The translations under genes were made by a program, and so were the position numbers. A DNA stretch of 23,694 bases from IMG/VR virus record IMGVR_UViG_3300017764_000112, positions 1 through 23,694 of that record, one strand, 5' to 3'. The notes beneath the pieces were generated by a model that made no database searches, was not told the DNA's origin, and was given only the letters and a program-made list of their open reading frames with translations. Within the stretch, counting starts at the first letter, position 1. Each line of letters opens with the position of its first letter. This stretch comes from a virus. Below are positions 1,424-23,432 of the stretch, piece after piece.

Positions 1424-1771
1424 ATGGATTCATTAAATCAAATAATATTTGACGATAAAACCTTTTCTGATCTTCTTAAAGAAATTCACACTAATCAAAA
1501 GAAAAAAGGTAAACAAATAGGTCAGCTTATAGCTGAATTAAGACCCCTTATCCAAAACTTAGGAGACGCTACTGTTGTAGTTCCATTAATTAAAGAATAC
1601 ATGGAAATTAGCGTTAAAAATGATGACCATTTATTAAAAATGGCAGCCATTGTACAGCGTTTATCCACAGGAAATACTACTAACGGTGGAGGTGATATGT
1701 TAACTGAAGAAGAAATGAACCAATTACAAAATATAATAGAAGAAACAGAAAAAGATAATGGCAATAGTTAG
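1424..1771 (+). CDS. Hypothetical protein preceding the tail hub gene
   Basis: A 115-residue, mostly helical acidic/basic protein with no signal peptide or membrane segment. A central stretch (about residues 33-85, with LIAELRPLIQNLGDATVVVPLIKEYMEI) looks like a folded helical bundle, followed by an Asn/Gly linker and an acidic helix (MLTEEEMNQLQNIIEETEKD). It is the first gene after a candidate late promoter and its last 14 bases overlap the start of the hub gene, which argues for translational coupling and for a role tied to the tail hub, for example as chaperone, assembly factor or minor component. I do not recognise the family. The opposite-strand frame over this region has no supporting features. 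Confidence 0.75.
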   Translation: MDSLNQIIFDDKTFSDLLKEIHTNQKKKGKQIGQLIAELRPLIQNLGDATVVVPLIKEYMEISVKNDDHLLKMAAIVQRLSTGNTTNGGGDMLTEEEMNQLQNIIEETEKDNGNS

Positions 1772-3500
1772 AACTAATAATAATTTTCAAATATTACCTA
1801 CAATAAGAAAATTAACAGTTGTTAGGGTTACTGATATTATATTAGATCCCAGTCATGACCAGTTTGAAAAATATGGAAATTATGACTCAATAGGGACTAT
1901 ATTTTATACTGAATTAAATCAATCTAATTCTAATACTAATTCTGTAGCTAAACCCTTATTTACTTTTGTAAAAAATTATCCTTTAATAAATGAATTAGTT
2001 TTAATTACTTCTACTAAAAGTAAAGATAATAAAATATCTTCATATTATTTTCCTATATTAAATATATGGAACCACCCTCACCATAATGCTTTACCATATA
2101 TTAAAGATACTAAAAATCAAGATTATAATCAAACAATAAATAGAAAATTAGAAGAAGCTTCTACAAATATTAAATTAGGTAATTATTTTCAAGAAAAATT
2201 AAATATAAAACCATTATTACCTTATGAAGGGGACACTATTATAGAAGGTAGATTTGGTAATTCAATTAGATTTGGTTCAACTAATATAAGTGATAAAGTA
2301 GGGACTCCTAACGGTTGGAGTAATGTAGGTAAATTAGGTGATCCTATTACTATTATTAAAAATGGTCAACCTCAATTAGATGGTAAAGGATGGATTCCTA
2401 ATATAGAAGATATAGCAAACGATGTTTCTTCTATTTATATGACATCTAATCAACAATTATCTAATTTTATTCCTGCCTCATTAAATCAAAAATCTTTTGG
2501 TGCTGATTTAGTTATAGAACCTACTATACAAGAACAATTAACAGGTAATTATGAACAACCAATACAACCAGTAGAAACAATTCCACCAACACAAGATTTA
2601 TATACAGATACTGTAGAATCATTTGAAAGTACACCAGTCAATCTTCCCCCTACATCATCAGTAGAATCCGATGACCCTTTTGCAGATTATGCAGAAGAAA
2701 TATTAGATGGACCTGGAACTATGGAAATTACTGATATATCAGGTACTGATGGAGCAGGAGAAGATAATATAGAAGATATGGGAGATGGGGAAATTGTAAC
2801 TGAAGAAGATATAGAAAATCTTTCAAATACTTTACAAACTGGTACAACAATAACAGTTCCATCTAAATCATACCCACCTAAATCTGTTGTTTTACATCCT
2901 CCTTTAAGTATTTATGATTTAAAAACCCAAATTGAATTACAACCTACAGCTAATAGAGTAGAATATTTAGTTATCCACACTACAGCTATGGCATATGGAA
3001 CAACACATGAAAAAGTAGCTAAATTTTTCATGCAAGATGTTAATGGTGATGGTTGGAGTAGACATGGTTATCATACAACAATAGATTATACAGGTAAATG
3101 TATACAAATATATAAAGATGATGAAAAATCATTTGGAGTTGGTACAGCAGGTAAATCTCCAAATCAAAGTAAAGATATAGGTAATCATAATACTATCAAT
3201 TTAAATTGGATAGGTGGGCATGTTTTTGATTTGACTAAAGAACAAGCAAATGCATTAAATGAATTAGTTAAATTTTATGTAATAAGATATCCTAATATTA
3301 AAATATTAGGTCATAATCAAATATATTTTGATCCTGTAAAAAAAGGTAAAACTTGTCCTTGGTTAGATGTCCCTACCTATTGTAGAGAATTAGGAATTAA
3401 CTCAAATAATATAGAAACAGCTAACCCAGCCAATTATCCATTAAGTAAATTAACAACTAATTCTATTAATACAGCAAAATTAAATTTAAAATCAGCTTAA
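1758..3500 (+). CDS. 5: Baseplate hub protein, gp5-like, with C-terminal N-acetylmuramoyl-L-alanine amidase
   Basis: A modular 580-residue tail-lysin. Residues ~1-190 look like a beta-rich hub/OB-type region that includes the segment LPYEGDTIIEGRFGNSIRFGS (about 155-175), which I associate with gp5-type hub proteins. Residues ~270-375 are a Pro/Thr- and then strongly acidic linker. Residues ~395-545 match the Amidase_2 (T7 lysozyme/PGRP-like) fold: VIHTT with His407, GWSRHGYHTTIDY, GHNQ with His519 and TCPWLDV with Cys533, the expected His/His/Cys zinc ligands. The enzyme would cleave the amide between MurNAc and L-Ala to let the tail tube cross peptidoglycan. T4 gp5 instead carries an internal glycosidase-type lysozyme domain. 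The loop before GWSR reads DVNGDG, which resembles a calcium-binding loop. The start overlaps the upstream gene by 14 bases; the stop abuts the next ATG. Confidence 0.8.
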   Translation: MAIVRTNNNFQILPTIRKLTVVRVTDIILDPSHDQFEKYGNYDSIGTIFYTELNQSNSNTNSVAKPLFTFVKNYPLINELVLITSTKSKDNKISSYYFPILNIWNHPHHNALPYIKDTKNQDYNQTINRKLEEASTNIKLGNYFQEKLNIKPLLPYEGDTIIEGRFGNSIRFGSTNISDKVGTPNGWSNVGKLGDPITIIKNGQPQLDGKGWIPNIEDIANDVSSIYMTSNQQLSNFIPASLNQKSFGADLVIEPTIQEQLTGNYEQPIQPVETIPPTQDLYTDTVESFESTPVNLPPTSSVESDDPFADYAEEILDGPGTMEITDISGTDGAGEDNIEDMGDGEIVTEEDIENLSNTLQTGTTITVPSKSYPPKSVVLHPPLSIYDLKTQIELQPTANRVEYLVIHTTAMAYGTTHEKVAKFFMQDVNGDGWSRHGYHTTIDYTGKCIQIYKDDEKSFGVGTAGKSPNQSKDIGNHNTINLNWIGGHVFDLTKEQANALNELVKFYVIRYPNIKILGHNQIYFDPVKKGKTCPWLDVPTYCRELGINSNNIETANPANYPLSKLTTNSINTAKLNLKSA

Positions 3501-7648: not shown

Positions 7649-8824
7649 ATGGCATATTACTTTATATTTCCCGAAAAAGATACAACATTATATAGTCATC
7701 CTGATAGGAGTACTATGAATACTGGTAATGATGAAGTACTTGAACTTATAAAAGAAAAAGGATCAAATAATACTTTACATTATCCTTCAAGAATATTAAT
7801 CCAATTTTCTAATGATGATATTCAAAAAGTTATAAATAAAATAGGTTCTAATAATTTTACTGCAAGTTTACAATTATTTTCTACAGAACATAAAAATTTA
7901 GCAGCAGAACAATTAATAGAAGTATTTCCTATATCTCAATCATGGAACGAAGGAACAGGTAGATATTCTAATTTACCTTTATCATCTAATGGTTCTTCAT
8001 GGCTATATAGAGATAACTCAATTAACAAAATAGAATGGTCGACTTCAAGTTTTTCTCCTGGTACTACAGGGTCAATATTTTCTCCAAACATTACTAAAGG
8101 AGGTGGAGTTTGGTATACAGGTAGTGGTTTTGAAGGAAGCCAATCATTTGCAAATGCAGATTCTTTAGATTTAAATATAGATGTTACTTCTATAGTACAA
8201 AAATTTAGTTCCAGTTTATACGCTTCTCAAACATACCCAACAGGAATTCCTAATTATGGGTTTATAATTAAAAATCCAGAAATTACAGAAAATGCTGTAT
8301 CAGGTAGTAATGGTGAATTACAATATTTTTCAGTAGATACCCATACAATTTATCCACCAAGATTAGCTTTTAAATGGGATGATAGTACAGCTACTTCTGG
8401 TCCTTATTCAACAGATGGAAATAATGAAATTATTCACCCAACAGCTGATTCTAGTAGTCAATATATAAATGTATCTTTAACTAATACTAAAAATGAATAT
8501 AATAAAAATGAAGAAGCTACATTTAGATTACATGTAAGAAAAAAATACCCTACACGTACATTTGTATCTGGTTCTAATTTTTTAAAAACAGGATTTCTTA
8601 AAAAAACTTCTTATTATAGTATAAGAGATGCACATACAGAAGAAGTAATTATTCCTTTTGATAATAATTGTACTAAATTAAGTGTAGATAATAATGGTAT
8701 GTATTTTAAATTACATATGAATGGATTTCAACCAGAAAGATATTATCGTATTTTAATTAAACATATTAATGATTATGGTACAACTATATTTGATGATAAT
8801 TACTATTTTAAAGTAATCAGATAA
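7649..8824 (+). CDS. Structural protein with DNRLRE-like (CBM96-type) domain
   Basis: A 391-residue protein directly after gp6. Residues ~1-190 resemble the DNRLRE/disaggregatase-like beta-sandwich found in surface carbohydrate-binding proteins: FPEKDTTLYSH at the N-terminus, SRILIQF (47-53), ASLQLF (72-77), VFPISQSWNEGTGRYSNLP (92-110), a SSWLYRD element and LNIDVTSIVQKF (175-186). The C-terminal ~100 residues (TFRLHVRKKYP … YYRILIKHIND … DDNYYFKVIR) look like a second Ig-like beta domain. It occupies the place of gp7 but is far shorter than T4 gp7, so a peripheral wedge or adhesin role is inferred. The last base of its stop is the first base of the next ATG. The domain call rests on pattern recognition only. 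Confidence 0.65.
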   Translation: MAYYFIFPEKDTTLYSHPDRSTMNTGNDEVLELIKEKGSNNTLHYPSRILIQFSNDDIQKVINKIGSNNFTASLQLFSTEHKNLAAEQLIEVFPISQSWNEGTGRYSNLPLSSNGSSWLYRDNSINKIEWSTSSFSPGTTGSIFSPNITKGGGVWYTGSGFEGSQSFANADSLDLNIDVTSIVQKFSSSLYASQTYPTGIPNYGFIIKNPEITENAVSGSNGELQYFSVDTHTIYPPRLAFKWDDSTATSGPYSTDGNNEIIHPTADSSSQYINVSLTNTKNEYNKNEEATFRLHVRKKYPTRTFVSGSNFLKTGFLKKTSYYSIRDAHTEEVIIPFDNNCTKLSVDNNGMYFKLHMNGFQPERYYRILIKHINDYGTTIFDDNYYFKVIR

Positions 8825-10167
8825 TGGCTAAAGAAAATATAAAATTAACTAAAACTATATATAGTACTAAATCAACAGAAGGTTTAGTAGATAGATCTTT
8901 TTCAGAAATTTTTAAAACAAAAGATCCTATAGATTTATCTAATTTTTTTTCTATATATGGAGAATTATTTTACGATATTCCTAAAACAGGAAAAAATTCT
9001 CATACAACAATTATAAAACAAAGTACTGATTATATAAAAAATTATATTGATCCTAAAGAAGAACAAATAGCTCTTTTAACAGAAAGAATTGCTGAATTAG
9101 AAGAAGAACTTAATACACCTGAGGAAGAACATCCATTTTATGCTAATGGTACTATAATAGGACAATCTGATAAACCATATATATGTTATTATATGGATAG
9201 GGGAAAAAGAAGATCAATTCAAGGTGGGGAAGAAGGAGAAGTATTTAAAGCTCTTAAAGCATCATTAGGGTATAATGATGATCCTGAAAGTGTAAATTAC
9301 ATAAATGATTATGATATCATTATGAGAGTCCCTAAAACTGTAATAGATGGTATAACAGAAGGTACTATATTAGGTTTAGAAGATTTAACAGGTCAAACTG
9401 AAGATCAACAACTAGAACAACAATTAGAACAACTTCAAAATATAGTCGTTAGTGATTGGAAAGTAGAATTAAGAGATTTAGTTCAACCTATAGAAAATGG
9501 AAGTATTAGTTCTCAAGTAACATTTATAATTTTATTAAAATCTAAAATTAAATCTGAATTTCAAAGAGAAGGAGAACTTGAAAGTTTAGAATGGAAATAT
9601 TATTTAGATGCAACTGAAGGATATACTCAAGAAGAAAAGGATAATGGAGAAAAATTACTAAAATTAATAAGACCAAAAGTACAAAGATCTAGACAAACAT
9701 TAGCTATATTAAAAAGAATTTGGGATAAAAAATCAAACTTTCCTAATATAAATTTTAGTGAGATATTACCAAGTACTGCCGCAGTAAATGCTGATGGTAA
9801 AAGGGTTAATGATAAGGGTAGTGGAACACAAATGTATCCATTAACTGAAGAAGAAGTTAATGATGCATATAGTGGATGGGAAGAAGGTCAAAATTTATTT
9901 GAAGGAATTTTAGAAGGAAATGAATACGAAGTAGATATTTCTAATATAGAATATAAAGGAAATGATGCTACTATACTTTTAAATCAAGGATTAATTAAAG
10001 TTAGATATAAAAAAGAAAAATTCATAGGTACAGGTTTTGGTGGAGGTTATTACTCTAATAGGGGTTATGAAGAATTATCTCAACATTATGGATTTGATAA
10101 TGATATAAACCAGGTAATAGAAATAAATAATTTTAGATATACATTTGATAAATATGTTTATTCATAA
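8824..10167 (+). CDS. Structural protein with coiled coils and a wall-protein-like module
   Basis: A 447-residue protein. Residues ~1-75 (STEGLVDRSFSEIFKT, LSNFFSIYGELFYDIPKTG) probably anchor it to the wedge. A short coiled coil (76-100, EEQIALLTERIAELEEELN) leads into a compact module (107-183) reading 'KPYICYYMDRGKRRSI … VFKALKASLGY … DYDIIMRVPKTVIDGITEGTIL'. That pattern of aromatic strand, GK(K/R)R-x-I, F-x-x-L and a closing I-x-x-G-x-I resembles repeats in bacterial wall-associated proteins. A Gln/Glu/Leu coil (192-206) and a mixed beta region follow, with a Gly/Tyr-rich stretch (GTGFGGGYYSNRGY) near the C-terminus. Coupled by TAATG to the upstream gene and three bases ahead of the 1145-residue gene, it is probably a baseplate component. 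The exact family is unknown. Confidence 0.6.
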   Translation: MAKENIKLTKTIYSTKSTEGLVDRSFSEIFKTKDPIDLSNFFSIYGELFYDIPKTGKNSHTTIIKQSTDYIKNYIDPKEEQIALLTERIAELEEELNTPEEEHPFYANGTIIGQSDKPYICYYMDRGKRRSIQGGEEGEVFKALKASLGYNDDPESVNYINDYDIIMRVPKTVIDGITEGTILGLEDLTGQTEDQQLEQQLEQLQNIVVSDWKVELRDLVQPIENGSISSQVTFIILLKSKIKSEFQREGELESLEWKYYLDATEGYTQEEKDNGEKLLKLIRPKVQRSRQTLAILKRIWDKKSNFPNINFSEILPSTAAVNADGKRVNDKGSGTQMYPLTEEEVNDAYSGWEEGQNLFEGILEGNEYEVDISNIEYKGNDATILLNQGLIKVRYKKEKFIGTGFGGGYYSNRGYEELSQHYGFDNDINQVIEINNFRYTFDKYVYS

Positions 10168-10170
10168 AAT

Positions 10171-13100
10171 ATGGCAAATATTAAAACTGAAATAGAAAAA
10201 ACAAAAAACAAATATAGTTTTCCACGTGAATCAATAGCATCAAAAACTATTGATAGAAGGTTTGGTAGACCTGAAGATTATATGGAAGCCCATATTTTTA
10301 ATACAAGAAACCAACTTATAACTTCTATACTAAATTTTACAGATTTTGAAATAATAGGTGATACTTCTTTAACAAATGAAATATCTTTAGATCCTATATT
10401 ATTATTAAATAATAATGGTTTTACTTCAGGAGATTATAAAATAATTATTAATGTACTTCGTAAAAAGATATTTAATACATCTTTACAAAAATTCGTAATT
10501 AAATCTATATCTCCTTCACGAACAGAGTTAAATGTTAAAGTTCAAGACGTATCTAAACAAGATTTATTAAATGCATCTCAAAGATTTATAAATGAATTAA
10601 ATAATTCACCCTTTTTTAGAGATTTTATATTAAATTTTGGTGAAAACCAACTCATAACAGGAGTTAATATAAGAATTAATGAAAAATCACCTATTGCAGA
10701 ATTAGGTATAAAATTAAATAGTCCTTTACCTAATAATATTAATTTACTTGATACATTTTCAATAGCTGAAGAAATTATAGATCCTATAACTATTAATCAA
10801 GATTTAGGTATTCCTGAATTTACAGATAGTAATTTACCTCTTAAAGGTCCTAATTTTAATATAGATGTTAGATTAAATAACAGTATACCCTCAGGTTATA
10901 AAAATTATGATGAATTATTAAAATATAGTTTAACATCCTCATATCAAGAACTTTTAGGTAAATTAGAAAACAGAGAAATTCCTGAAATTCAATATGATTA
11001 TATTAGAACCCCTTCAGGTAGTAATGAAGGAGATCCCCAAGAAACAACTTATAATTTTGAAAATTTTGTACATTTTGGTAGTGCTTTAGAAAGACTTAAA
11101 AATTTTAAATATAAAGTTGAATTATTAGAACAATATGATAATAGATTATCTACAATAAATTCAATTACAGGTCCTACATCTGCTTCTGTTTTTGTATTAA
11201 ATGATAAAGAATCTACTATAACTAAAAAAACTAATTTACTTAAAAACTTAGATGGTTATGAAAGATTTTTATATTACGAATCAGGAGCATTGTCATGGCC
11301 TAAATCTACAACATCATCACCTCATACTTTATATTCAATATCTTCTTCACAAGTATTAAATTGGTTAGGAGATGAAAGGGATAGTTACCCATATTATGGG
11401 GGTCAACTTTTATCAGCTTCTTTATATGATAATCAAAATGAACATTCCTTAATAAGATTAATTCCTAATCATATCTTAGAAAACTCAGATAATTCATTTT
11501 ATGTTACATTTGTCCATATGATGGGTCATCATTATGATCAAATTTGGACCCATATTAAACATATTACTGAAGTTAATGATACTCATCATACAAGAGGTAT
11601 TTCTAAAGATTTAGTTTATTTTTCTTTAAAAAGTTTAGGATTAGAAACATTTGATCAATTTGAAAATTCAAATTTAATAGAATATATTTTAGGTGAAGGA
11701 ACAACAGGTAGTATATTTTATGATGTCCCTGAAAAACAAACTCTAGTAACTGCATCTAATGCAGGTTCAATTCCTAAAGGAGATATTACTAAAGAAATAT
11801 GGAAACGATTATACCATAATGCACCTTATTTATTAAAAACTAAAGGTACTGAACGTGGTCTTAAAGCTCTTATGAGTTGTTATGGTGTTCCATCTACTAT
11901 ACTTAATGTTAAAGAATATGGAGGTCCTACTAAAGACAAAACAACATATAAGACATTTAGTTATGAAAAATCTGGATTAGCTCTAAAGGGAGACTCAGGT
12001 ACAGGCAGTGGATATTTTATAAAAGCCCCTTGGAAGTCTAATCTTACAGATCAATTATCGGCATCTCAAAAAACTGTTGAATTTAGAATAAAACCTCATA
12101 GATCTAGTGAAAATTATCATTTATTTTCATTATCAGATTCAAGTTCTCCTTCTAGAGATGTGCATTTTATATTAGAACCTTATACAGGTAGTGATATATC
12201 ATCTTCAGGAGACGCTAATCAATATGGTAAATTAAGTTTAAAGTCTGGTGATGTTCTTTCACAACCATTTACATCTACAGAATTTCTCCCTATATATAAT
12301 GGAGATTTTTGGAACGTATATATAGGATCTAGAGAAGTTATTGGTAATCAACAAGAACTTGAATTTGGTGCTTATCAATCAAACTATTTAAAAAATACAT
12401 CATATTATACAGCATCAATAAACCAATCATTAGTTGCTAATACAGGAGGATGGGGTAGTTATTCAGGTGCTTTATTTCTTAGAGAAAACAGTAACCCAAA
12501 TTTTGAGGATTTTGTAGGGGGAGCCCAATTTAGTTATATAGGAGGAATCCCTCCTGGAGATCCCCCTTCTAATGTATCTTCTTTACGTTATTCAGGTTCA
12601 ATACAAGAAATAAGATATCATTTTGGTGAATTACTTTCACATGATACTCTTACACAACATGCACTTGAACCATTTATGTATTCAGGTAATACAATTTCTT
12701 CTTCATATGAAAATTTAGTTTTAAGACTACCATTAGGGAGTAATGATAAAAGAAGTTCAGCAAGTTTTCATCCTAATTCAGATATAAATTATTTAAATTC
12801 AATATCAAGTAGTATGGTTACCCAAGAATGGGAAGAAGTGATTGAAACCCATCATTTACCTACTCCTGATACAGTTGGTATTTCAATGACAAGTGAAAAA
12901 ACCAGAATAGATATAGGTACTATAGATGATGATTGGTTATCAGTTAATAAAAAAACAGAAACGTCTACATTAGATAGACAACCATTAGATTATCCAGATT
13001 TAGGAGTGTTTTTTTCTCCTACAACTGAAATTAATGAAGATATATTATATACTTTAGGTTCATTTAGATTGGATGATTATATAGGTTCACCTTTACCATC

Positions 13101-13608
13101 AGTTCAGTCTGCATCTATATATGAAGATTTAGCTGATATAAAAGATATATATTTTAAAAAAGTAAAACGACGATATAATTATTGGGATTATATTAAATTA
13201 ATTCAGTATATTGATCATACATTATTTAAATTAATAGAACAATTTACCCCTGCAAAAGCTAATTTAAAAACAGGATTATTAATTGAACCACATTATTTAG
13301 AAAGAACCAAATTTAAAAGAGAAATTCCTACTACAGGTGTAGGTCAAAGTATGTTAAATAATTCATACCAAACTTTTGAATTTGAAATAGATCCTGAAAA
13401 ACAATTTTCTTTAACAAATTCCTCAGTTATTGTAACTAATAATTTACTTCAAACAACTAGTAGTAATGGTCAAAGACAAGAACAAGGAACTAATGCTATT
13501 ATAAATGTTAAAGATCAGTGTGGATTTAAAGGTTCTTCAGATTTTGAAGGAAATATTACAAATGGAATTACTTCTAATAGGTATTATCAATTACGACGAA
13601 TTAATTAA
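10171..13608 (+). CDS. Large baseplate/tail protein (gp7 position) with inserted LamG-like domain
   Basis: At 1145 residues this is the largest gene in the window. Residues ~1-250 include a helix-rich start and SLDPILLLNNNGFTSGDYKI. Residues ~445-490 (VHMMGHHYDQIWTHIKHIT, …GISKDLVYFSLKSLGLE) and ~548-585 (NAPYLLKTKGTERGLKALM, CYGVPSTILNVKEYGG) resemble the tail protein I/wedge region that precedes fibre attachment. Residues ~620-835 look like a concanavalin/LamG beta-sandwich: KTVEFRIKPHRSSENYHLFS, WNVYIGSRE, GSIQEIRYHFGELLS. A helix near 1000-1050 (YNYWDYIKLIQYIDHTLFKL) and a Thr/Asn-rich tail close the protein. Size and position after gp6 suggest the functional equivalent of T4 gp7 (1032 residues), but I see no direct gp7 motif. 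Confidence 0.65.
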   Translation: MANIKTEIEKTKNKYSFPRESIASKTIDRRFGRPEDYMEAHIFNTRNQLITSILNFTDFEIIGDTSLTNEISLDPILLLNNNGFTSGDYKIIINVLRKKIFNTSLQKFVIKSISPSRTELNVKVQDVSKQDLLNASQRFINELNNSPFFRDFILNFGENQLITGVNIRINEKSPIAELGIKLNSPLPNNINLLDTFSIAEEIIDPITINQDLGIPEFTDSNLPLKGPNFNIDVRLNNSIPSGYKNYDELLKYSLTSSYQELLGKLENREIPEIQYDYIRTPSGSNEGDPQETTYNFENFVHFGSALERLKNFKYKVELLEQYDNRLSTINSITGPTSASVFVLNDKESTITKKTNLLKNLDGYERFLYYESGALSWPKSTTSSPHTLYSISSSQVLNWLGDERDSYPYYGGQLLSASLYDNQNEHSLIRLIPNHILENSDNSFYVTFVHMMGHHYDQIWTHIKHITEVNDTHHTRGISKDLVYFSLKSLGLETFDQFENSNLIEYILGEGTTGSIFYDVPEKQTLVTASNAGSIPKGDITKEIWKRLYHNAPYLLKTKGTERGLKALMSCYGVPSTILNVKEYGGPTKDKTTYKTFSYEKSGLALKGDSGTGSGYFIKAPWKSNLTDQLSASQKTVEFRIKPHRSSENYHLFSLSDSSSPSRDVHFILEPYTGSDISSSGDANQYGKLSLKSGDVLSQPFTSTEFLPIYNGDFWNVYIGSREVIGNQQELEFGAYQSNYLKNTSYYTASINQSLVANTGGWGSYSGALFLRENSNPNFEDFVGGAQFSYIGGIPPGDPPSNVSSLRYSGSIQEIRYHFGELLSHDTLTQHALEPFMYSGNTISSSYENLVLRLPLGSNDKRSSASFHPNSDINYLNSISSSMVTQEWEEVIETHHLPTPDTVGISMTSEKTRIDIGTIDDDWLSVNKKTETSTLDRQPLDYPDLGVFFSPTTEINEDILYTLGSFRLDDYIGSPLPSVQSASIYEDLADIKDIYFKKVKRRYNYWDYIKLIQYIDHTLFKLIEQFTPAKANLKTGLLIEPHYLERTKFKREIPTTGVGQSMLNNSYQTFEFEIDPEKQFSLTNSSVIVTNNLLQTTSSNGQRQEQGTNAIINVKDQCGFKGSSDFEGNITNGITSNRYYQLRRIN

Positions 13609-13618
13609 TAATTAAAAA

Positions 13619-14869
13619 ATGGGTTTTCAACAATTAACATTAAACGCTAATAATTTTTCACATAATTCTACCATTTCATCAGGAGATTTTGATGATATAG
13701 CTGTTACTTCTCCTGGTAAAATTATTTTTAGTAATAGTGATACTGATTTTGCTATAACTCATACATTTGATTCACCTCAAATTCTTACTAAATTAGTAAT
13801 AAATTTTACTTCAGATCACAAAGCCACCCATTATTTAGTTCAAGCATCAACAGATGGTATAAATTATATTACTATTTCAACTGTATCAGGACTAGCTAGT
13901 TCTAGTGATCAAGAATATCTTATAACTCAACCTTTAGTTAACCCTATAAAATATAAATCATTTAGATTTTCTTTTACTCAATTTCAAAACTCAAGTACAA
14001 CAGAAGTAGAAAGTATTACTGCTTTTATCCCTGATAACTTACAAGATTATAGATATAAAGATTATAATGTAGAATTTGATGATAGTCTTATAGATATGGC
14101 ATCATGGAAAAATTCTCGTTATAATGGATCTAAACTAACAGGAACTAGAATTAATTTTTATACAGAAGGAGATGGTCCTTATCCTTTTGGTTTAAAACCT
14201 ATTATAGAAAATAAAGTATGTGCTTTATTTGTTGGATCTAGTATTCTAACAGGAGACGCTGATAACACAGGTGATCATTTAACAGAGATTAAAAATCATA
14301 GTTATGTAACTATTGATACTATTTTATTAATAAATGTAGAAACAAATAAAGTAGAAAAAATTTCTCATGAACAATTTAATGAAACTGAAGAGAAAAAAAC
14401 ATCATTTAGACGTTTTATCCATGAAAGTTTTCCTGAAGGGTCTAAAATAGTTACAAAAATTATAAATAATATAGATAGTAAATTATTAAAAGAATCACAT
14501 CGTGTAAAATTTAATCAAGGTCTTTTAATGAAACTATATTCTTATACAGCAAACACAGGTAGTAATCAAGATGATGGAGTATTTGGGGGATATGGTGTTA
14601 GAGAATCAAAAGGTAATCTAACTCAAAATGTAGCTTCAGGGTCATCTTCTGGTGGAGGGTTATTTAGTTTTGGATCTTCTCATATTAATAGTAGATCAAT
14701 ATTTAATGCTACTTCAATTAAAACAGTTGATGAATTTCCAAGTGAATTATCATTCTATAGTACTAATATTGGGTCTATAAATTCACTTTTACCTTTAACA
14801 GCTTCAAATACACCACCACCTACTGAACCGTTAGTATATTATTTTCCTAATCAAAATTCAAAACTATAA
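13619..14869 (+). CDS. Structural protein with N-terminal F5/8C (discoidin)-like domain
   Basis: A 416-residue protein. Residues ~15-138 look like a discoidin/F5-8 type C beta-sandwich: ITHTFDSPQILTKLVINFTS, HYLVQASTDGINYITISTV and KYKSFRFSFTQF, the usual 'x-x-V-x-x-S-x-D-G-x-x-(W/Y)' core and return strand of glycan- or lipid-binding domains. Residues 162-182 (SWKNSRYNGSKLTGTRINFY) form a motif I have seen in other phage structural proteins at this location. Residues ~205-310 are a mixed region with HSYVTIDTILLINVETN, and the C-terminal 100 residues are Gly/Ser-rich and low in complexity. Ten bases of A-rich spacer separate it from the 1145-residue gene. It is probably an adhesin-like baseplate or fibre-base protein. 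Confidence 0.6.
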   Translation: MGFQQLTLNANNFSHNSTISSGDFDDIAVTSPGKIIFSNSDTDFAITHTFDSPQILTKLVINFTSDHKATHYLVQASTDGINYITISTVSGLASSSDQEYLITQPLVNPIKYKSFRFSFTQFQNSSTTEVESITAFIPDNLQDYRYKDYNVEFDDSLIDMASWKNSRYNGSKLTGTRINFYTEGDGPYPFGLKPIIENKVCALFVGSSILTGDADNTGDHLTEIKNHSYVTIDTILLINVETNKVEKISHEQFNETEEKKTSFRRFIHESFPEGSKIVTKIINNIDSKLLKESHRVKFNQGLLMKLYSYTANTGSNQDDGVFGGYGVRESKGNLTQNVASGSSSGGGLFSFGSSHINSRSIFNATSIKTVDEFPSELSFYSTNIGSINSLLPLTASNTPPPTEPLVYYFPNQNSKL

Positions 14870-14879
14870 AAATTAACAT

Positions 14880-15524
14880 ATGGGAGTAGCACCACCAATA
14901 TTTCAAGAATTAACTAGTAGCCTTGCACACTTTTATGATGAAGTAGTTTACTGGGAAATGGCTAAAAATACTAATAGATTTTTTGTTACTTTTGAAAAAG
15001 GACAATATGCTATTCCTAATAATGGACAAGAATCTATTGGAACATTAGAAATAACATATCCCCATGTAAATTCTAATACAGGTTCGCTTGATAGTTTTAA
15101 TTTAGGTGCTACAAGAAACACAGCAAGATATGATGCCTTTTTAGAGCATGAAGAAAAATTCATAGGAAATAATCATGATTATGATGGATTTATAACTACT
15201 ACAGAATTAAAAGGTACTCGTTTTTTTGAAACAACTTTAACTTCTTCAATATTTCAAACAAAAACTATAGACTATCAAATTTATAGTGGAAGTAGTGTAG
15301 TTTCAGCTTCTAGAACAGTTTCAGCATCTTATTGTTATCCTTATTCAAGTCATCAATTATCAGTATTAAGAAAAAGTCCTACTTTAATTATAGATTTAGA
15401 TAAAGATAATGAATTACCTGATAGTGTGGATGTAGAAGATTTATTTGTATTAATACCTGAACATACACACCCTAAAATAAAAGAAAATATAGATTTTTAT
15501 CTAAAACAAGCAGGATACAAATAA
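14880..15524 (+). CDS. Virion protein of unknown function
   Basis: A 214-residue protein with predicted beta-rich character in the middle and a helical C-terminus. The N-terminus has a charged, aromatic helix (LAHFYDEVVYWEMAKNTNRF) followed by FFVTFEKGQYAIP, and the end carries SPTLIIDLDKDNELP and HPKIKENIDFYLKQAGY. No signal peptide, membrane span or catalytic motif is visible. It is 10 bases after the discoidin-like protein and is the last gene before the longest gap (49 bases), so it may close one late transcription unit. A structural or assembly role is inferred only from its place in the virion cluster. A shorter opposite-strand frame inside it looks like a shadow. Confidence 0.75.
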   Translation: MGVAPPIFQELTSSLAHFYDEVVYWEMAKNTNRFFVTFEKGQYAIPNNGQESIGTLEITYPHVNSNTGSLDSFNLGATRNTARYDAFLEHEEKFIGNNHDYDGFITTTELKGTRFFETTLTSSIFQTKTIDYQIYSGSSVVSASRTVSASYCYPYSSHQLSVLRKSPTLIIDLDKDNELPDSVDVEDLFVLIPEHTHPKIKENIDFYLKQAGYK

Positions 15525-15547
15525 ACTAAACATTTTTTAAAATATTT

Positions 15548-15566
15548 TATATTTATAACAAAACAT
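15548..15566 (+). promoter_or_regulatory. Candidate late promoter element, site 3
   Basis: TATATTTATAACAAAACAT sits in the longest intergenic gap of the window (49 bases), 7 bases before the ATG at 15574. It is nearly identical to the block at 4849 and shares its first 11 bases with the one at 1402. The reverse strand reads TATAAATA at 15550-15557. The repeated block in three real gaps is the evidence; the direction and start site cannot be determined here. Confidence 0.4.
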
Positions 15567-15573
15567 AATTACA

Positions 15574-16281
15574 ATGGGATACTTAGATAACAGTTCAATT
15601 ACAGTAGATGCGATACTAACTAAAAAAGGTCGCGAATTATTATCACGAAATGATGGTTCATTTAATATTACATCATTTGCATTAGCAGATGATGAAATTG
15701 ACTATTCATTATTTAATGAAAATCACCCAGATGGGTCTCAATTTGCAGGTCAAGCTATTGAAAATATGCCTATATTAGAAGCATTTCCAGATGAAAATAA
15801 TATAATGAAGCATAAGTTAATTACTTTAAATAGAAATATGACTAAAATTCCTGTTATTACTATATCTAACCAAGAACCAAAATTAAATAAAGGAGGTTCA
15901 GATGTATTAAATCCTTTAACATTAAATGTAGACGGGTCCTCAGGTCCAGGAGGTATTGAGAGTGGCGGTTATTTATTTACTGTAAAAGATAGAAGATTAT
16001 TTTCTTCATTTATAGGTTCAGGACAAGGTACAGCACAATCTGGAACAACTACAGGTATATCAAGTACTGTAGCTGTTAGTGAAACAGTAATAGGTAATTC
16101 TTTATCATTTACAGCTATATCTTCAGATGCATTATTTGGTACTAATACCCAATTAGTAACTACTATTACAGTCGAAGGTAGAGACACAGGAGCTAGAGCA
16201 ACAATACCTGTTGTTATTAATAAAAATTTAACAACTAAAAATCAATTTGCGCAGGGTCAAACAGCTATAGAAGCACAATAA
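15574..16281 (+). CDS. Conserved virion structural protein with C-terminal Ig-like domain
   Basis: A 235-residue protein. The N-terminal ~100 residues (GYLDNSSITVDAILTKKGRELL, then FNITSFALADDEIDYSLFN and HPDGSQFAGQAIENMPILEA) form a recognisable conserved block that I associate with structural proteins of T4-like environmental phages. A Gly-rich linker (SSGPGGIESGG) leads to a Thr/Ser/Val beta-rich C-terminal domain of about 90 residues (VAVSETVIGNSLSFTAISS … LVTTITVEGRDTGARATIPVVI) with the look of a bacterial Ig-like fold. It is the first gene after the candidate promoter at 15548 and starts the second structural group. Its exact place in the particle (tail, neck or fibre base) is not known. 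Confidence 0.65.
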   Translation: MGYLDNSSITVDAILTKKGRELLSRNDGSFNITSFALADDEIDYSLFNENHPDGSQFAGQAIENMPILEAFPDENNIMKHKLITLNRNMTKIPVITISNQEPKLNKGGSDVLNPLTLNVDGSSGPGGIESGGYLFTVKDRRLFSSFIGSGQGTAQSGTTTGISSTVAVSETVIGNSLSFTAISSDALFGTNTQLVTTITVEGRDTGARATIPVVINKNLTTKNQFAQGQTAIEAQ

Positions 16282-16298
16282 TTAAAATAAAATAAAAA

Positions 16299-17354
16299 AT
16301 GGCACGAATAAATTATGATATACAAAATGATGTAGTAAATGATACTCAAAAAGTAGTTACATCTACATGGTCTAATAATACCAATGAATTAAAAGGTACT
16401 CACACATCATCAACTCAAGCAGATTTTTCTAGTGCTACAAGTAAAGGAGCATTTTTTATAGAAGTATATAATGAAGCTACTTCTTCAACTAATGCTGCTG
16501 TACAATACTCAATAGCATATGGACATCGAAATGGATCAGGATCATTTAATTTTGCCAATGATGTTGGAGCAAAAGGAAATAGTCCTTCAAAAGTTATATA
16601 TAACCAATACCGTCAATTAGTATTTGGAGATGAAACTAAAAATTTTCAATTCCCTAGTGATAAATCTAGTATAGATTCAGGAATTTCTATTACACCTGAT
16701 GATATTTATGTAATAAATGTTAATCGATCTCGTTATAAAAATAATTTAAAACCAGGATCTTTAAATTTAACATTATCAGGATCAGGAATAGGTACTCTTA
16801 AACTTACTGATGATTCTATTACATCAACAGGATCAGCAATTATTACTAATGCTGGTAGACAATTTAATATAATTTCAGGATCAAGTGGTGTCAGATCAGG
16901 TTCATCAAATGTTCAAGTTACAAACAGTGGTTCATATGGTTTATATTATCCTGATAGTGGTTTTATATTATTAAACCCAGCAGCAATTGATCATCAACTT
17001 ACAAGTTTAACTCCTGTAATAGCTGATAATACTGCTTCTAGTAACCATCAAAAGTTAGTTACTGCTATAAGTGGAGGAAATTCATTTATCTTAGATAGTG
17101 AAGAAAAAATAAGTTCTAAATACTATTTTACAAGAGTTAAAAACTCCCAATTTAATTTTACAACAAATCCTTCATTTACAGATAGTACTGGTAATTTAAG
17201 ATATAGTACAATGGAAAATAACCCAAAAGTATTTATTACAACAGTAGGATTATATAATGATACTAATGATTTAATAGCAGTAGCTAAATTAAGTCAACCT
17301 ATTGCTAAAGATTTTTCAAAAGAAGCCCTTATTAGAGTTAAATTAGATTATTAA
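16299..17354 (+). CDS. Virion structural protein sharing modules with the next gene
   Basis: A 351-residue beta-rich protein. Its N-terminal half includes KGAFFIEVYNEATSS, VQYSIAYGHRNGSGSFNF, then IYNQYRQLVFGDETKNF and YVINVNRSRYKNNLKPGSL (about 137-155). The middle is Ser/Gly/Thr-rich. The C-terminal ~70 residues (FNFTTNPSF … NPKVFITTVGLYND, DLIAVAKLSQPIAK, about 281-335) closely resemble the end of the 594-residue protein that follows, as does the 'LKPGSLNLTLSG' strand, so the two genes are partial paralogues. It follows the 235-residue protein after 17 A-rich bases. Similar ITTVGLYN-type endings are familiar to me from phage structural proteins; a fibre-linked or neck role is only a guess. 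Confidence 0.65.
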   Translation: MARINYDIQNDVVNDTQKVVTSTWSNNTNELKGTHTSSTQADFSSATSKGAFFIEVYNEATSSTNAAVQYSIAYGHRNGSGSFNFANDVGAKGNSPSKVIYNQYRQLVFGDETKNFQFPSDKSSIDSGISITPDDIYVINVNRSRYKNNLKPGSLNLTLSGSGIGTLKLTDDSITSTGSAIITNAGRQFNIISGSSGVRSGSSNVQVTNSGSYGLYYPDSGFILLNPAAIDHQLTSLTPVIADNTASSNHQKLVTAISGGNSFILDSEEKISSKYYFTRVKNSQFNFTTNPSFTDSTGNLRYSTMENNPKVFITTVGLYNDTNDLIAVAKLSQPIAKDFSKEALIRVKLDY

Positions 17355-17367
17355 AAATGTTAATTGA

Positions 17368-19152
17368 ATGTCAGTTTATAAAAAATTTTTACCTAAAGAC
17401 TACGCAGTAGTACCATTCAATGCTCATAAACAATATAATTTTAACTCAACATCTTCATTTAATTTAAATCAAATTAAATTTTTTAATACTGAGCATAATC
17501 AACTTAGTATTGATACTTATGATACTAGTAGTATTATAGGAAATAATCTAGAAGGTTTTGACCATGTTAAATATCATCAACTTGATCATTTATTTTATAG
17601 GAATTATCTTACAGATATAAGTAATAAATTTGGAGATATAAACTATTTAAAACATCATAGATATTTATCTAAAAGAGCTACAATAGTATCAATTCCTACA
17701 GGATTATATGGTCATAAGATAAAACCAGGTTCTTTAGAATTTAGCGCAGGAGGGAAAACTTTTATAGATGATTCCTATGGAAATTTAATACAAAAAGGAA
17801 CCAATGTAGATAATTATATTACAGACCCTCGATCAATTTTATTAAATTTAGGTCCTAATAATGGTTTTAAAAAATATAATTTAAATGTATATGATGATTT
17901 TATTGAAGGGATCTATTATAAAAAAGGACAACCTCGAGTAAATAAACTTTCTTCATATAGTACTCCATCAGATAAATATGAATATGATGATAGTTATTTT
18001 TTAAATAAAGTATATTATAATAAAGTTAATTTTAAAGAAATAGATTTAAAAAACTATAATGAAGCTCATAAATTTTTTCCTGGTATAGATTTTATAGAAA
18101 CAGAATCTGAAGTAAAAATCCCACATAATAATAATCTTGATTTTAATGATGATAATAATTATACATTACAATTTTGGATAAAATCTAATCAAATATCTAC
18201 ATCAGGTTCTTATGATAAAGTACATGTTTTAAGTAAATCAACATTAAAAGATATTGCACCTATACCATATGATAATGGTAATTTACCTGAAAATTCTTCT
18301 GAAATTTTATCTGGAGAAAAATATCCTTTTAAAATATACTTAACTAGACATTCAGATACTCAAAATAAAATACATTTTTCTGTAAGTGATGGTGAATCTG
18401 AATCTGATACATTTACTCTAATAGATACAGGATCATTTGATTATATAACTTGTTGTAGAGAAAATGATAAAATAAAAATATATAAAAACGGATATTCTCC
18501 TTCTCCACCTCAAAATTTATGTACTGATAAAAACACAAATAATTCTTCTCCTATTTATATTGGGGGTAAGTCTAGTTTAACTTCTAATTATAATAATAAT
18601 TCGTTTAGTGGTTCTATATGTAATTTAAAAATATATAACACTAAATTATCTTCTGTTAATATAAATAATCATTATTCGATAAAAAATGGTTCTCCATATT
18701 TAGGAAATATTTTTTATTCTCACGGATTAATTTCTGTTACTCATCCTGCCTATATATCTCAATATGATATGTTGGGGATAGGACATATGGATGTAGATGA
18801 TGATGAATTATTAGAACAAACTTTTACTGTAGGTGGGGTTATTTTATCTAATAACGATTGGTTACAAAATATTCAATTTCAAGGTTCTCATTTAATATAT
18901 GAAAATGAATATCAATGTAATATTGATGAATATGAATATAATATTACATTAAACCCTACAATAAGAAAAAATAGATCTCTTCATGATGAAAATTTAGCTA
19001 ATTTTGCTACAGGTTCACTTTTTAAACCTTATATTACAACTGTAGGTTTATATAATGAAAAAAATGAATTATTAGTTGTAGGAAAATTAGGTCAACCTAT
19101 AAGAACATCAAATGAAACAGATACTACCCTTATAGTAAGATGGGATACTTAA
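17368..19152 (+). CDS. Virion protein with central LamG-like domain
   Basis: A 594-residue protein. Residues ~105-135 contain IVSIPTGLYGHKIKPGSLEFS, matching a strand in the upstream gene. Residues ~245-440 form a LamG/concanavalin A-like domain: VKIPHNNNLDFNDDNNYTLQ, FWIKSNQIS, KIHFSVSDGE, DKIKIYKNGYSP, PIYIGGKSSL and FSGSICNLKIYNTKLS, the typical edge strands of such lectin-like sandwiches. The C-terminal ~75 residues (YEYNITLNPTIRK … KPYITTVGLYNEKNELLVVG, KLGQPI) repeat the ending of the preceding gene. It may have arisen by insertion of the LamG domain into a copy of the 351-residue protein. Glycan binding is inferred from the fold; neither a ligand nor calcium residues can be assigned. 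Confidence 0.65.
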   Translation: MSVYKKFLPKDYAVVPFNAHKQYNFNSTSSFNLNQIKFFNTEHNQLSIDTYDTSSIIGNNLEGFDHVKYHQLDHLFYRNYLTDISNKFGDINYLKHHRYLSKRATIVSIPTGLYGHKIKPGSLEFSAGGKTFIDDSYGNLIQKGTNVDNYITDPRSILLNLGPNNGFKKYNLNVYDDFIEGIYYKKGQPRVNKLSSYSTPSDKYEYDDSYFLNKVYYNKVNFKEIDLKNYNEAHKFFPGIDFIETESEVKIPHNNNLDFNDDNNYTLQFWIKSNQISTSGSYDKVHVLSKSTLKDIAPIPYDNGNLPENSSEILSGEKYPFKIYLTRHSDTQNKIHFSVSDGESESDTFTLIDTGSFDYITCCRENDKIKIYKNGYSPSPPQNLCTDKNTNNSSPIYIGGKSSLTSNYNNNSFSGSICNLKIYNTKLSSVNINNHYSIKNGSPYLGNIFYSHGLISVTHPAYISQYDMLGIGHMDVDDDELLEQTFTVGGVILSNNDWLQNIQFQGSHLIYENEYQCNIDEYEYNITLNPTIRKNRSLHDENLANFATGSLFKPYITTVGLYNEKNELLVVGKLGQPIRTSNETDTTLIVRWDT

Positions 19153-19181: not shown

Positions 19182-20759
19182 ATGCCAACGCAATCTAGAG
19201 AAGTCTTAAAAAGCTATTTTGAACATCATGATACTCCTGATGAACCAGAATTTATTGATCTAATAGATTCAATGTTAAATTTAGCAGATCCTGGTACCCA
19301 ATTTGTAGCAGGAACTATATCTGCTTCTGGTTTATTAGCAGATACTTATAATTTAGAAGCCTTTAATTTCCAAGATATATCTTCTATTTCTCTTACAGGT
19401 AGTAATCAATTTGGATCAACAGCCTCATCCCATATACATGGTTTTACAGGTTCTATTCAACAATCAGGTAGTTGTGATTCTTACTTTTTAAATAATTTAT
19501 CTATTGGTACTAAAACATCCTATCAATCTTGTTTAGGAGGATTAACTATACTTAAAAATAAAACAATAGGTAGTAATGTTAATCCTATTAATCAAGCTAA
19601 AAGTTCATCATTATTAATTTCTGGTGCAACTTCAAATGGTCAATTAGCTGTTGATAGTAATGAAATCTATCATTATGGAAATAATTTAGTATTATATTCT
19701 CAAGGAAACGGTTCTACAGATGGGAATATGGAATTTAAAGTTGGTAATACTGCTGCATTAAGTAGTATTACTAGTTCCTGTGCTTTATATCTTAAATATG
19801 ATAATAAAATAGGTATAGGAACAAGCACACCAACAAGACCCTTATCTTTAGAAGGTGCTAATGGAAGTTTACCTTTATTCCAAATAAAAAACACAGTCTC
19901 TAATAACACTGGTCAAGATGTTATTATGTCATTTAACCGTGATAATTCTGATTCACTTGGATTTTCTATTGGTATAGACTCACTGGATAATTCATTTAAA
20001 ATATCAGATGATGGAAATGATATAAATACTAATAATAGAATAACTATTTTAAGCTCAAGTGGTAATGTAGGTATAGGAACAACACTTCCAGGTAAAAAAC
20101 TTACAATACATGGTAATGTAAGTGCAAGTGGCCATTTATTTGCAAGCGCATCAGATGCATCAGGTACAAATTATCACACATTATTAGTAGATACAGCTTC
20201 AGGACAATTTTATCACACAGGTTCTTATGGTGGTGGAGGAGGTGGAGGTACTACAGTACAAGGTAACCAAGGAGGGTCAGGAGCTACTTTAGTAGATATA
20301 GTAATAGGTGGAACTTCTTTTTTAGTAGGAGGCGGATTTTGGAAAAATCATGCTAATGGAATAGAACTTTCATCATCAGCTGATAATGTAGGTATAGGAT
20401 CAGCTCCTTCAAACACTCATAAATTAGCAGTAGATGGTACTGGAGTTTTTTCAAATGATGTAATTGCATATTATACTTCAGATAAACGTTTAAAAGATAA
20501 TATTAAACCAATTGAAGATCCTATTGGAAAAATTAAACAAATAGGAGGTTATTCATTTGATTGGAATGATAAACAAAGTATATATGAAGGGACAGATTTT
20601 GGTGTTATAGCACAAGAAATCGAACAGGTATTACCTTCATTAGTTCAAACAAGAAAAGATGGTTTTAAAGGAGTTAAATATGATAAAATAGTTTCATTAT
20701 TGATTGAAGCTATTAAAGATCAACAAAAACAAATTGATGAACTTAAAAAACTAATCTAA
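19182..20759 (+). CDS. Tail fibre with C-terminal S74 intramolecular chaperone
   Basis: A 525-residue fibre. The N-terminus (MPTQSREVLKSYFEHHDTPD, EPEFIDLIDSMLNL) is a motif I associate with phage fibre proteins at their virion-attachment end. The shaft holds three copies of a strand-turn motif (IGIGTSTP, VGIGTTLP, VGIGSAPS) and a Gly7 run (GGGGGGG). The last ~95 residues are a Peptidase_S74 chaperone: YYTSDKRLKDNI with catalytic Ser433 and Lys438, YSFDWND, GTDFGVIAQEIEQVLPSLV and a terminal coiled coil (LLIEAIKDQQKQIDELKKLI). In this family the chaperone trimerises the fibre and then cuts itself off just before the Ser, here after residue 432. The mature fibre would be about 432 residues. 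One base separates it from the next gene. Confidence 0.88.
   Translation: MPTQSREVLKSYFEHHDTPDEPEFIDLIDSMLNLADPGTQFVAGTISASGLLADTYNLEAFNFQDISSISLTGSNQFGSTASSHIHGFTGSIQQSGSCDSYFLNNLSIGTKTSYQSCLGGLTILKNKTIGSNVNPINQAKSSSLLISGATSNGQLAVDSNEIYHYGNNLVLYSQGNGSTDGNMEFKVGNTAALSSITSSCALYLKYDNKIGIGTSTPTRPLSLEGANGSLPLFQIKNTVSNNTGQDVIMSFNRDNSDSLGFSIGIDSLDNSFKISDDGNDINTNNRITILSSSGNVGIGTTLPGKKLTIHGNVSASGHLFASASDASGTNYHTLLVDTASGQFYHTGSYGGGGGGGTTVQGNQGGSGATLVDIVIGGTSFLVGGGFWKNHANGIELSSSADNVGIGSAPSNTHKLAVDGTGVFSNDVIAYYTSDKRLKDNIKPIEDPIGKIKQIGGYSFDWNDKQSIYEGTDFGVIAQEIEQVLPSLVQTRKDGFKGVKYDKIVSLLIEAIKDQQKQIDELKKLI
19811..20402 (+). repeat. Three dispersed AGGTATAGGAACA-type repeats in the fibre gene
   Basis: AGGTATAGGAACA occurs at 19811-19823 and 20069-20081, with AGGTATAGGATCA at 20390-20402, each encoding the Gly-Ile-Gly turn of a repeated shaft motif. 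The copies are about 258 and 321 bases apart, so they are dispersed rather than tandem. They could support recombination between fibre segments. Confidence 0.7.
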
Positions 20760-22991: not shown

Positions 22992-23432
22992 ATGAAATGG
23001 TTATATAATAAAAAGGAAATTAATGATATAGCCGACCTTCCACAAGAAACGTTCGGCTTTATTTATCAAACAACCCACACACCTACAGGTAAAAAATATA
23101 TTGGTAAAAAATCACTAATGTATAATTTAAAGAAAAAATTAGGTAAAAAAGAAAAGGCCCTTTGGGAAGGTAAAGGTCGCCCACCAATGTATAAACGTGT
23201 ATTAAAAGAAAGCGATTGGAAAACATATTATGGTTCACATCACTTAATTAAAGAATATTTAAAAGGTGGTTTTGAACATGAATTAAAACGTGAAATAATA
23301 GCAATCGCAACAGATAAAAAACATTTGACTTACTTGGAGTGTAAGCATCAGTTTGCGCTTGGTGTGCTTGAAAAAAGTGAATATTTAAATGACAATATTC
23401 TTGGTAAATTTTTTGATAAAGATTTTGCATAG
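22992..23432 (+). CDS. GIY-YIG-type endonuclease, free-standing
   Basis: A 146-residue single-domain protein. The core 'GFIYQTTHTPTGKKYIGKK' (residues ~22-40) gives the paired Tyr25 and Tyr36-Ile-Gly38 of GIY-YIG nucleases. WKTYYGSHHLIKEYL (76-90), ELKREIIAIA with Arg100, and HLTYLECKHQF with Glu116 (the likely metal-binding residue) follow in the expected order, and the end reads YLNDNILGKFF. Phage relatives include freestanding homing (Seg-like) nucleases and T4 endonuclease II; sequence alone does not decide between homing and host-DNA degradation. No flanking intron is visible. It lies between the fibre cluster and the primase, a common place for mobile nucleases. All three Arg codons are CGN, unlike the neighbouring late genes. 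Confidence 0.75.
   Translation: MKWLYNKKEINDIADLPQETFGFIYQTTHTPTGKKYIGKKSLMYNLKKKLGKKEKALWEGKGRPPMYKRVLKESDWKTYYGSHHLIKEYLKGGFEHELKREIIAIATDKKHLTYLECKHQFALGVLEKSEYLNDNILGKFFDKDFA

Follow-up and report, generated by a model that had tools for sequence, protein, structure and literature searches.

A candidate gp7-type wedge protein and putative P2-type fibre collars in the baseplate region of an uncultured contractile-tailed virus

The baseplate genes of phage T4 form the block gp25-gp6-gp7-gp8-gp9-gp10-gp11-gp12, and P2-type tails, also represented by R-pyocin and Vibrio phage XM1, have gpW-gpJ-gpI-gpH. A (gp6)2-gp7 unit is common to contractile tails. We describe the baseplate region of a marine virus record, IMG/VR IMGVR_UViG_3300017764_000112, analysed over its full length of 23,694 bases (the window) and without a near DNA match among 50,697 phage records. 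In it gp25 and gp6 are followed at 7649-17354 by seven tightly packed plus-strand genes for proteins of 391, 447, 1145, 416, 214, 235 and 351 residues, each named below by its length. An earlier, sequence-only reading had given these positions and lengths exactly, and regarded the seven as structural genes without visible T4 counterparts that appear to form an alternative baseplate periphery.

In XM1, gp17 is the solved partner in a (gp16)2-gp17 unit homologous to (gp6)2-gp7, and the spikes may pass the signal via the wedge on to gp15 and the sheath (PMC10457771). In T4, A511 and R-pyocin and, by prediction, in P2 and Mu, the gp7-type component is where receptor-binding proteins are attached (PMC10811340). 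The collar domain of P2 gpH, absent from T-even phages, is a likely contact between fibre and baseplate (PMC6363177).

Our preferred reading, to which we give a probability of about 0.7, is that the region encodes a gp7-type wedge protein with lectin-like insertions, on which P2-type collars are docked in place of T4 gp8-gp12. With T4 the window shares homologous gp25 and gp6 and a gp7-type wedge protein of similar length, whose KG signature lies at residue ~738 in the T4 protein; it differs in having two additional genes that separate gp6 from the gp7-like one, in its lectin-like domains, and in that no member of the gp8, gp9/10 or gp11 families was found in its module. With P2-type tails it shares the KGT...E(Y/F)GG wedge signature of gpI and XM1 gp17 and, as local matches of moderate strength, short motifs of the gpH N-terminal collar in the 235- and 351-residue proteins. 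Unlike those tails, it has a T4-like gp6, a wedge protein several times larger (1145 residues against 220 for the XM1 gp17-like protein), two apparently split-off wedge genes, and collar motifs placed in separate proteins.

A probable gp7-type wedge protein

The gp25 and gp6 assignments, called clear by the sequence-only reading, are secure from Pfam, PHROG and profile comparison (Table 1), the profile-profile match of gp6 to T4 gp6 (E 5.3e-12) serving as control for the same comparison of the seven proteins. None of the seven has a PHROG match at E<=0.01, and the only convincing Pfam match among them, F5/8 type C in the 416-residue protein, lies below its cut-off. Whole-protein profile-profile comparison of the seven with T4-type gp7-gp12, a check that the sequence-only reading had proposed, gave no match and no one-to-one mapping (all E >= 0.016). 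Comparison with profiles of T4 gp5-gp12, gp53 and wac gave nothing beyond the gp6 control. A link to gp7 came from motif profiles.

A first scan with a P2 gpI-type profile aligned best, among all proteins of the window, with the KGT stretch of the 1145-residue protein (E 0.0013, probability 18%); the other 128 of 130 scan windows gave E 0.012 at best. Within residues ~541-585, K558, G559 and T560 are each conserved in at least 90% of 84 sequences. A KG(T/I) signature with the following E-x-Y/F-GG region is common to P2 gpI, XM1 gp17 and the 1145-residue protein; the KG motif is also present in gp7 of T4, P-SSM2 and HTVC008M, and in all seven T4-type gp7 proteins examined. The core of the 1145-residue protein was compared with a 19-sequence gp7/gpI/XM1 motif profile, which includes the XM1 protein corresponding to the solved gp17, and reached a score of 32.9 (probability 84.8%, E 6.5e-6). 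The control scan of 115 windows yielded two strong matches, both over the motif, and nothing better than E 0.0088 (score 17.6) in the remaining 113, while 100 column shuffles scored 18.1 at best. Because T4/cyanophage gp7 against P2 gpI scores only E 1.1e-4 by the same method, the 1145-residue protein matches as well as accepted orthologues do. On this sequence evidence it is the gp7 counterpart, a wedge protein of the gp7/gpI family. The earlier statement that no T4 wedge motif could be recognised thus does not hold when the comparison takes in the gp7 family of contractile tails as a whole, and the claim that all seven lack T4 counterparts falls for this protein; it stands for the others in so far as counterparts of gp8-gp12 were not found.

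Several points count against the assignment. The match is to a 39-column motif and not to a whole domain, and the motif region was selected after the first gpI match was known. Mu gp48, which lacks the motif, was left out of all motif profiles. There was no match to Tail_P2_I (PF09684) in the window in a single-sequence Pfam search, nor to PF21428, the T4 gp7 helical domain, in six relatives. Whole-protein profile comparison with T4 gp7 fails (E 0.22), and a fold search with the core gave no PDB match at E<=0.001, no VIA-align row with Z>=5 and no listed wedge protein, a result with which a gp7 fold is still compatible. Whole-protein comparison of T4 gp7 with P2 gpI likewise fails (E 0.4). Since T4 gp7 does not match the P2 gpI profile either, a Pfam match to Tail_P2_I or Gp7_helical carries little weight as a criterion and does not define the family.

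The missing whole-protein and Pfam matches are what might be expected if the periphery were wholly unrelated to known ones, with gp7 absent or replaced by a non-homologous protein. We consider this improbable, as the gp7/gpI signature stands far above the 113 control windows and the 100 shuffles, and as contractile tails have the (gp6)2-gp7 unit in common, which the XM1 work also holds (PMC10457771).

The structure model of the core (residues 286-605) has a predicted local distance difference test score (pLDDT) of 70.8. In BFVD the core gave 11 matches at E<=0.001, all to viral proteins that are uncharacterised or without a name in the tables. PDB sequence searches with profiles of the 1145-, 391-, 351- and 235-residue proteins and of the 1145 core gave no meaningful match. 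Locus L003, whose 1145-residue protein is 100% identical to that of the window, was dropped from the alignments. The listed homologues used were 41 of 48 in alignment A2, 25 of 64 in A3, 17 of 23 in A4, 16 of 17 in A5, 34 of 36 in A6, 35 of 37 in A7 and, with L093 and L154 left out, 83 of 85 in A8. Motif profile superA was made without four of the seven T4-type gp7 proteins and without L230, both of which are restored in superB and superC.

The size of this protein varies. Far longer 1145-type open reading frames (ORFs) occur in L185 (880-9951; 3024 residues) and L223 (2185 residues), which suggests further inserted domains; gp7 of P-SSM2 has 5195 residues. Kyanoviridae (P-SSM2, HTVC008M) resemble the window in their T4-like gp6, in a protein with the KG motif at the gp7 position and in non-T4 structural genes downstream, and differ in that HTVC008M retains a detectable gp8 and in the length of the P-SSM2 gp7. 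In Pelagibacter phage HTVC008M the protein after gp6 (L237, 1436-4486; 1016 residues) is annotated 'head closure Hc2'. It has the gp7 position and the gp7 KG motif, and the record has another Hc2 elsewhere; the label is likely a misannotation.

Proteins proposed to surround the wedge

Residues 600-895 of the 1145-residue protein have a laminin-G/pentraxin-like fold in the model. VIA-align superposes 206 residues on 4dqa with Z 17.6 and a root-mean-square deviation of 3.5, and many laminin-G and pentraxin chains are among the structural matches, with Foldseek E down to 5e-6. In a fold search with the full 1145-residue model this part alone was matched. The 594-residue protein, encoded next after the 351-residue one, matches PF13385 at 42.8 bits (cut-off 27.6), and LamG_3 was found in 30 of 40 relatives' records. 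Model and sequence together indicate a laminin-G/concanavalin-like lectin domain in both proteins, whose role would be sugar binding.

In relatives the 416- and 214-residue proteins occur fused, either with one another or with the 1145-residue protein, which links them to the latter. The 416 core and the 214 domain form one protein in 51 ORFs, the 416 core lies inside nine 1145-type ORFs (four of these matches are weak, E 1e-8 to 4e-5), and all three regions make up a single ORF in L053, L061 and L111. These counts include some contigs that were fetched twice. They rest on restricted profiles, earlier iterative 416 and 214 profiles having been discarded when they drifted into the 1145 family. 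The 235-type gene is reached in 86 loci. In 30 of these the interval after the 1145-type gene has a 416/214 fusion and in 15 both genes separately; a split wedge is not seen in the 22 with solely unidentified ORFs in this interval or in the 19 with no ORF there. Outside those 22 and 19 loci, the simplest reading of the sequences is that the three proteins are one peripheral unit, split or joined by lineage. The F5/8 type C domain of the 416-residue protein (PF00754, 23.7 bits against a cut-off of 28.2) is found in 4 of 18 of its homologues.

Profiles of the 235 and 351 families were compared by hhalign with five P2 gpH-type N-terminal domains, a comparison chosen with the gpH sequence pattern already known. 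The 351 family matched the second half of the domain (probability 63%, E 7e-5) and the 235 family the first half (probability 31%, E 5.2e-4). The controls were weaker, 21 other profiles giving E >= 0.022 and 100 shuffles of each profile scoring ~20 or below, as against 38.2 for the 351 family and 31.0 for the 235 family. We regard the collar motifs as a lead of moderate strength from sequence. Together with the fusions described above, they also weigh against the view of seven genes without counterparts.

The module runs beyond 17354, as the 594-residue protein is a paralogue of the 351-residue one. The two share a domain, and the 351 profile covers homologous ORFs end to end. Microcystis phage Mel-JY01 has five consecutive 351-type genes (L001, 16573-25516; 357, 352, 954, 718 and 591 residues), an expanded set of fibre-like proteins. 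In the longer ones the profile covers ~350 residues at the C-terminal end, a shared region that might be an attachment domain.

The 235-, 351- and 594-residue proteins could instead be no collars and stay clear of the wedge, as free-standing decoration or as fibres of the neck/whisker type. The collar alignments span just 17-28 columns, the collar family PF12571 (DUF3751) has no match in the window by Pfam hidden Markov model, and it is found in 3 of 36 351-type proteins with a best E of 0.0047; the shortness of the motifs and the missing window match favour such a role and tell against docking on the wedge. The genes are nonetheless part of the wedge block. In 83 of 83 loci that include the gene next after the 235-type one, that gene is of the 351 family, and the ~350 C-terminal residues of the longer Mel-JY01 proteins keep the shared region. 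We hold the decoration role to be unlikely, while giving it appreciable weight.

Counterparts of gp8-gp12 were also sought in relatives. A search of six relatives' records over their whole length found no member of the Pfam families of gp8 (PF09215), the gp9/10 N-terminus (PF07880) or gp11 (PF08677). Two of these records, Mel-JY01 and Flavobacterium phage immuto 3-5A, are titled complete genomes; the other four, the 484-kb LR756508 and three IMG/VR contigs, may be fragments. The same three families were found in both positive controls, T4 and Vibrio K571, and the gp8 family was detected even in the distant HTVC008M (E 1.8e-12). gp12 was sought by profile comparison alone and not found, its best E of 0.016 being with the 351 family. 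The proposal of an alternative periphery is upheld by these results.

They also bear on whether the seven might be one-to-one homologues of T4 gp7-gp12, diverged past detection by sequence. Gene number and position do resemble the T4 block, and even T4 gp7 goes undetected when compared as a whole protein with P2 gpI. We rate this as very improbable: the order differs, with two genes between gp6 and the gp7-like gene; the gp8, gp9/10 and gp11 families were found in none of the six records, yet gp8 is detectable in HTVC008M; the 235- and 351-residue proteins resemble P2 collars and not gp8-gp12; and two of the seven appear to be pieces of one unit.

The 391- and 447-residue proteins are the least explained of the seven. 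The former is among the best conserved, with a mean column identity of 54%, and is possibly a linker or clamp with a carbohydrate-binding-like jelly roll. CBM96, a candidate domain for it, matched 2 of 42 homologues with a best E of 5.5e-5; it was found in 0 of 40 relatives' records at E<=0.01, a point against the preferred reading. The 447-type ORFs, 204 in all, range from 110 to 712 residues and combine an N-terminal domain of ~105 residues with very variable C-terminal parts. Two genes with the N-terminal domain are present in 33 of 171 loci (L024, L025, L033, L026 and others). The variable remainder and the double copies are compatible, as sequence features, with an exchangeable appendage, and the protein may serve as an anchor for receptor binding that is subject to diversifying selection.

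Recurrence of the module and a proposed mechanism

We counted 127 loci, each with a gp6 protein of distinct sequence and with a 1145-type gene. Most were retrieved through their resemblance to the 1145- or 235-residue protein, so that the presence of that gene is selected and that of its neighbours is not. The 1145-type gene lies downstream of gp6 in the gp25-gp6 block in all 127, which were selected for both genes, with the 391 and 447 genes intervening. gp25 is immediately upstream of gp6 in 116 of the 117 loci that have an upstream neighbour. Of the 127 loci, 122 have the 391-type gene immediately after gp6 and 126 have it somewhere between gp6 and the 1145-type gene; the 447 N-terminal domain is encoded in that interval in 124. 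Because this gene order recurs across the 127 loci, the block is a functional unit and not a chance run of ORFs.

Among viral contigs, at least 574 matched stretches were confirmed as relatives of the 1145 family and at least 589 of the 235 family. The tblastn searches of named phages with the 1145-, 391- and 235-residue proteins returned the same six records each time (Flavobacterium phage immuto, four records; Microcystis phage Mel-JY01; uncultured phage LR756508), and these were also the only long matches of gp6. Immuto (Immutovirus), Mel-JY01 and LR756508 have gp6, 391-, 1145-, 235- and 351-type genes in identical order; Mel-JY01 differs from the window in its five consecutive 351-type genes and in having no match to the 447 N-terminal domain. 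In the two annotated regions, those of Mel-JY01 and immuto, the 391-, 1145-, 235- and 351-type homologues are hypothetical proteins, and the immuto gene after the 1145-type one is annotated as a putative nucleic acid binding protein.

In what was available of the literature on immuto and Mel-JY01 no description of this tail was found: the accessible text of PMC7077304 does not mention immuto, and that of PMC9230969 has no such description. Virion proteomics or microscopy of a module-bearing phage was likewise not found in the literature, a further point on the debit side. A search of genome contigs with the 235-residue protein gave no match and hence no host indication, and one with the 1145-residue protein gave three contigs of metagenome-assembled genomes that were uninformative on the host. 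One contig with a 1145-type gene (L224) is binned as Candidatus Nitrosopelagicus, an archaeon, an assignment that is probably a binning error.

The preferred reading would work as follows. In a phage with a contractile tail, the region would supply the wedge and the periphery of the baseplate, gp25 and gp6 being T4-like. The 1145-residue protein would be the third universal wedge component (T4 gp7 = P2 gpI = XM1 gp17 = 'BW3'), its greater size due to a beta-rich N-terminal part and the laminin-G-like domain, with the 416- and 214-residue proteins as separately encoded pieces of the same unit. The 235-, 351- and 594-residue proteins would dock fibres on this wedge through their collar motifs, replacing gp8-gp12. 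The 391- and 447-residue proteins would be additions particular to the clade, placed between gp6 and the wedge protein, and the 447-residue one would be an anchor with a variable end. First, the lectin-like domains and fibres would bind surface glycans; the pull would then be transmitted via the collars to the gp7-type protein, which moves; the gp6 ring and gp25 would follow and the sheath contract. Gene content and order, the gp7 signature, the laminin-G domains and the fusions are direct results, and the collar motifs have moderate support; we infer this signal path, and with it the glycan binding and the positions in the particle, because of the anatomy, the attachment of receptor-binding proteins (PMC10811340) and the XM1 signal (PMC10457771).

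Host sensing would then be built differently from T4, as the sequence-only reading had suggested, in so far as the periphery is not that of T4; rather than following an unknown principle, it is probably built as in P2-type tails, with a collar on a gp7-type wedge. A broader proposal can be put forward only tentatively, and we lean against it: that the whole outer baseplate has been rebuilt in a very large, mostly uncultured clade of contractile phages, with a three-gene gp7-type wedge bearing a lectin domain, a clade-specific joiner between gp6 and wedge, and P2-type collars split from their fibres, so that sensing and triggering would pass through glycan-binding wedge domains and not through a gp8-gp12 ring.

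Public viral contigs frequently carry the module, which is nonetheless almost nameless in databases. Naming the gp7 counterpart and the likely collars would allow annotation of many hundreds of environmental tails, and would provide a first set of candidate host-binding proteins for the phages that bear the module. That peripheries vary between phages is already known, and the gp7-like part of AlgoCIS has been called an evolutionary hotspot (PMC8894135); here the outer baseplate appears exchangeable while gp25-gp6-gp7 stays.

Feature coordinates and neighbouring genes

Table 1. Baseplate and fibre features of the window, with the evidence for each
Feature	Coordinates	Strand	Evidence
gp25-like sheath initiator / baseplate wedge protein, 144 aa	5310..5744	+	PF04965 E 1.7e-12; phrog_261 E 7.9e-16
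gp6-like baseplate wedge protein, 629 aa	5757..7646	+	phrog_219 E 1.6e-20; T4 gp6 profile 97.5%, E 5.3e-12
391-aa conserved protein between gp6 and gp7-like gene	7649..8824	+	gene order; weak CBM96 support
447-aa protein, ~105-aa N-terminal anchor and variable C-terminal extension	8824..10167	+	gene order, length variation
1145-aa gp7/gpI (BW3)-type wedge protein	10171..13608	+	motif profile probability 84.8%, E 6.5e-6; AlphaFold pLDDT 72.1
gp7-family KGT...EYGG signature, residues ~541-585 of 1145-aa protein	11791..11925	+	motif profiles
laminin-G / pentraxin-like domain, residues 600-895 of 1145-aa protein	11968..12855	+	VIA-align Z 17.6; Foldseek
416-aa protein, optional F5/8 type C-like N-domain and conserved core	13619..14869	+	PF00754 E 5.6e-5; fusions
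214-aa protein, proposed split-off part of 1145-aa wedge unit	14880..15524	+	fusions, gene order
235-aa protein, motif of P2 gpH collar first half at residues 13-40	15574..16281	+	hhalign probability 31%, E 5.2e-4
351-aa protein, C-terminal motif of P2 gpH collar second half, residues 312-333	16299..17354	+	hhalign probability 63%, E 7e-5
594-aa paralogue of 351-aa protein, inserted laminin-G domain at residues 247-432	17368..19152	+	PF13385 E 7.8e-11; 351-family profile
525-aa tail fibre, C-terminal S74 chaperone domain, first gene past module	19182..20759	+	PF13884 E 1.8e-16

Upstream of gp25, a 580-residue protein (1758-3500) has a C-terminal amidase domain (PF01510 E 1.4e-11) and is perhaps a hub-associated peptidoglycan enzyme. 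Two further upstream stretches give weak matches, 639-1394 to a family of late sigma factors (E 8e-4) and 384-635 to an Rz-like spanin (E 6e-4). Just past the fibre genes, at 22992-23432, lies a gene for a SegE-type GIY-YIG endonuclease (PF19835 E 1e-25), which recurs in many relatives.

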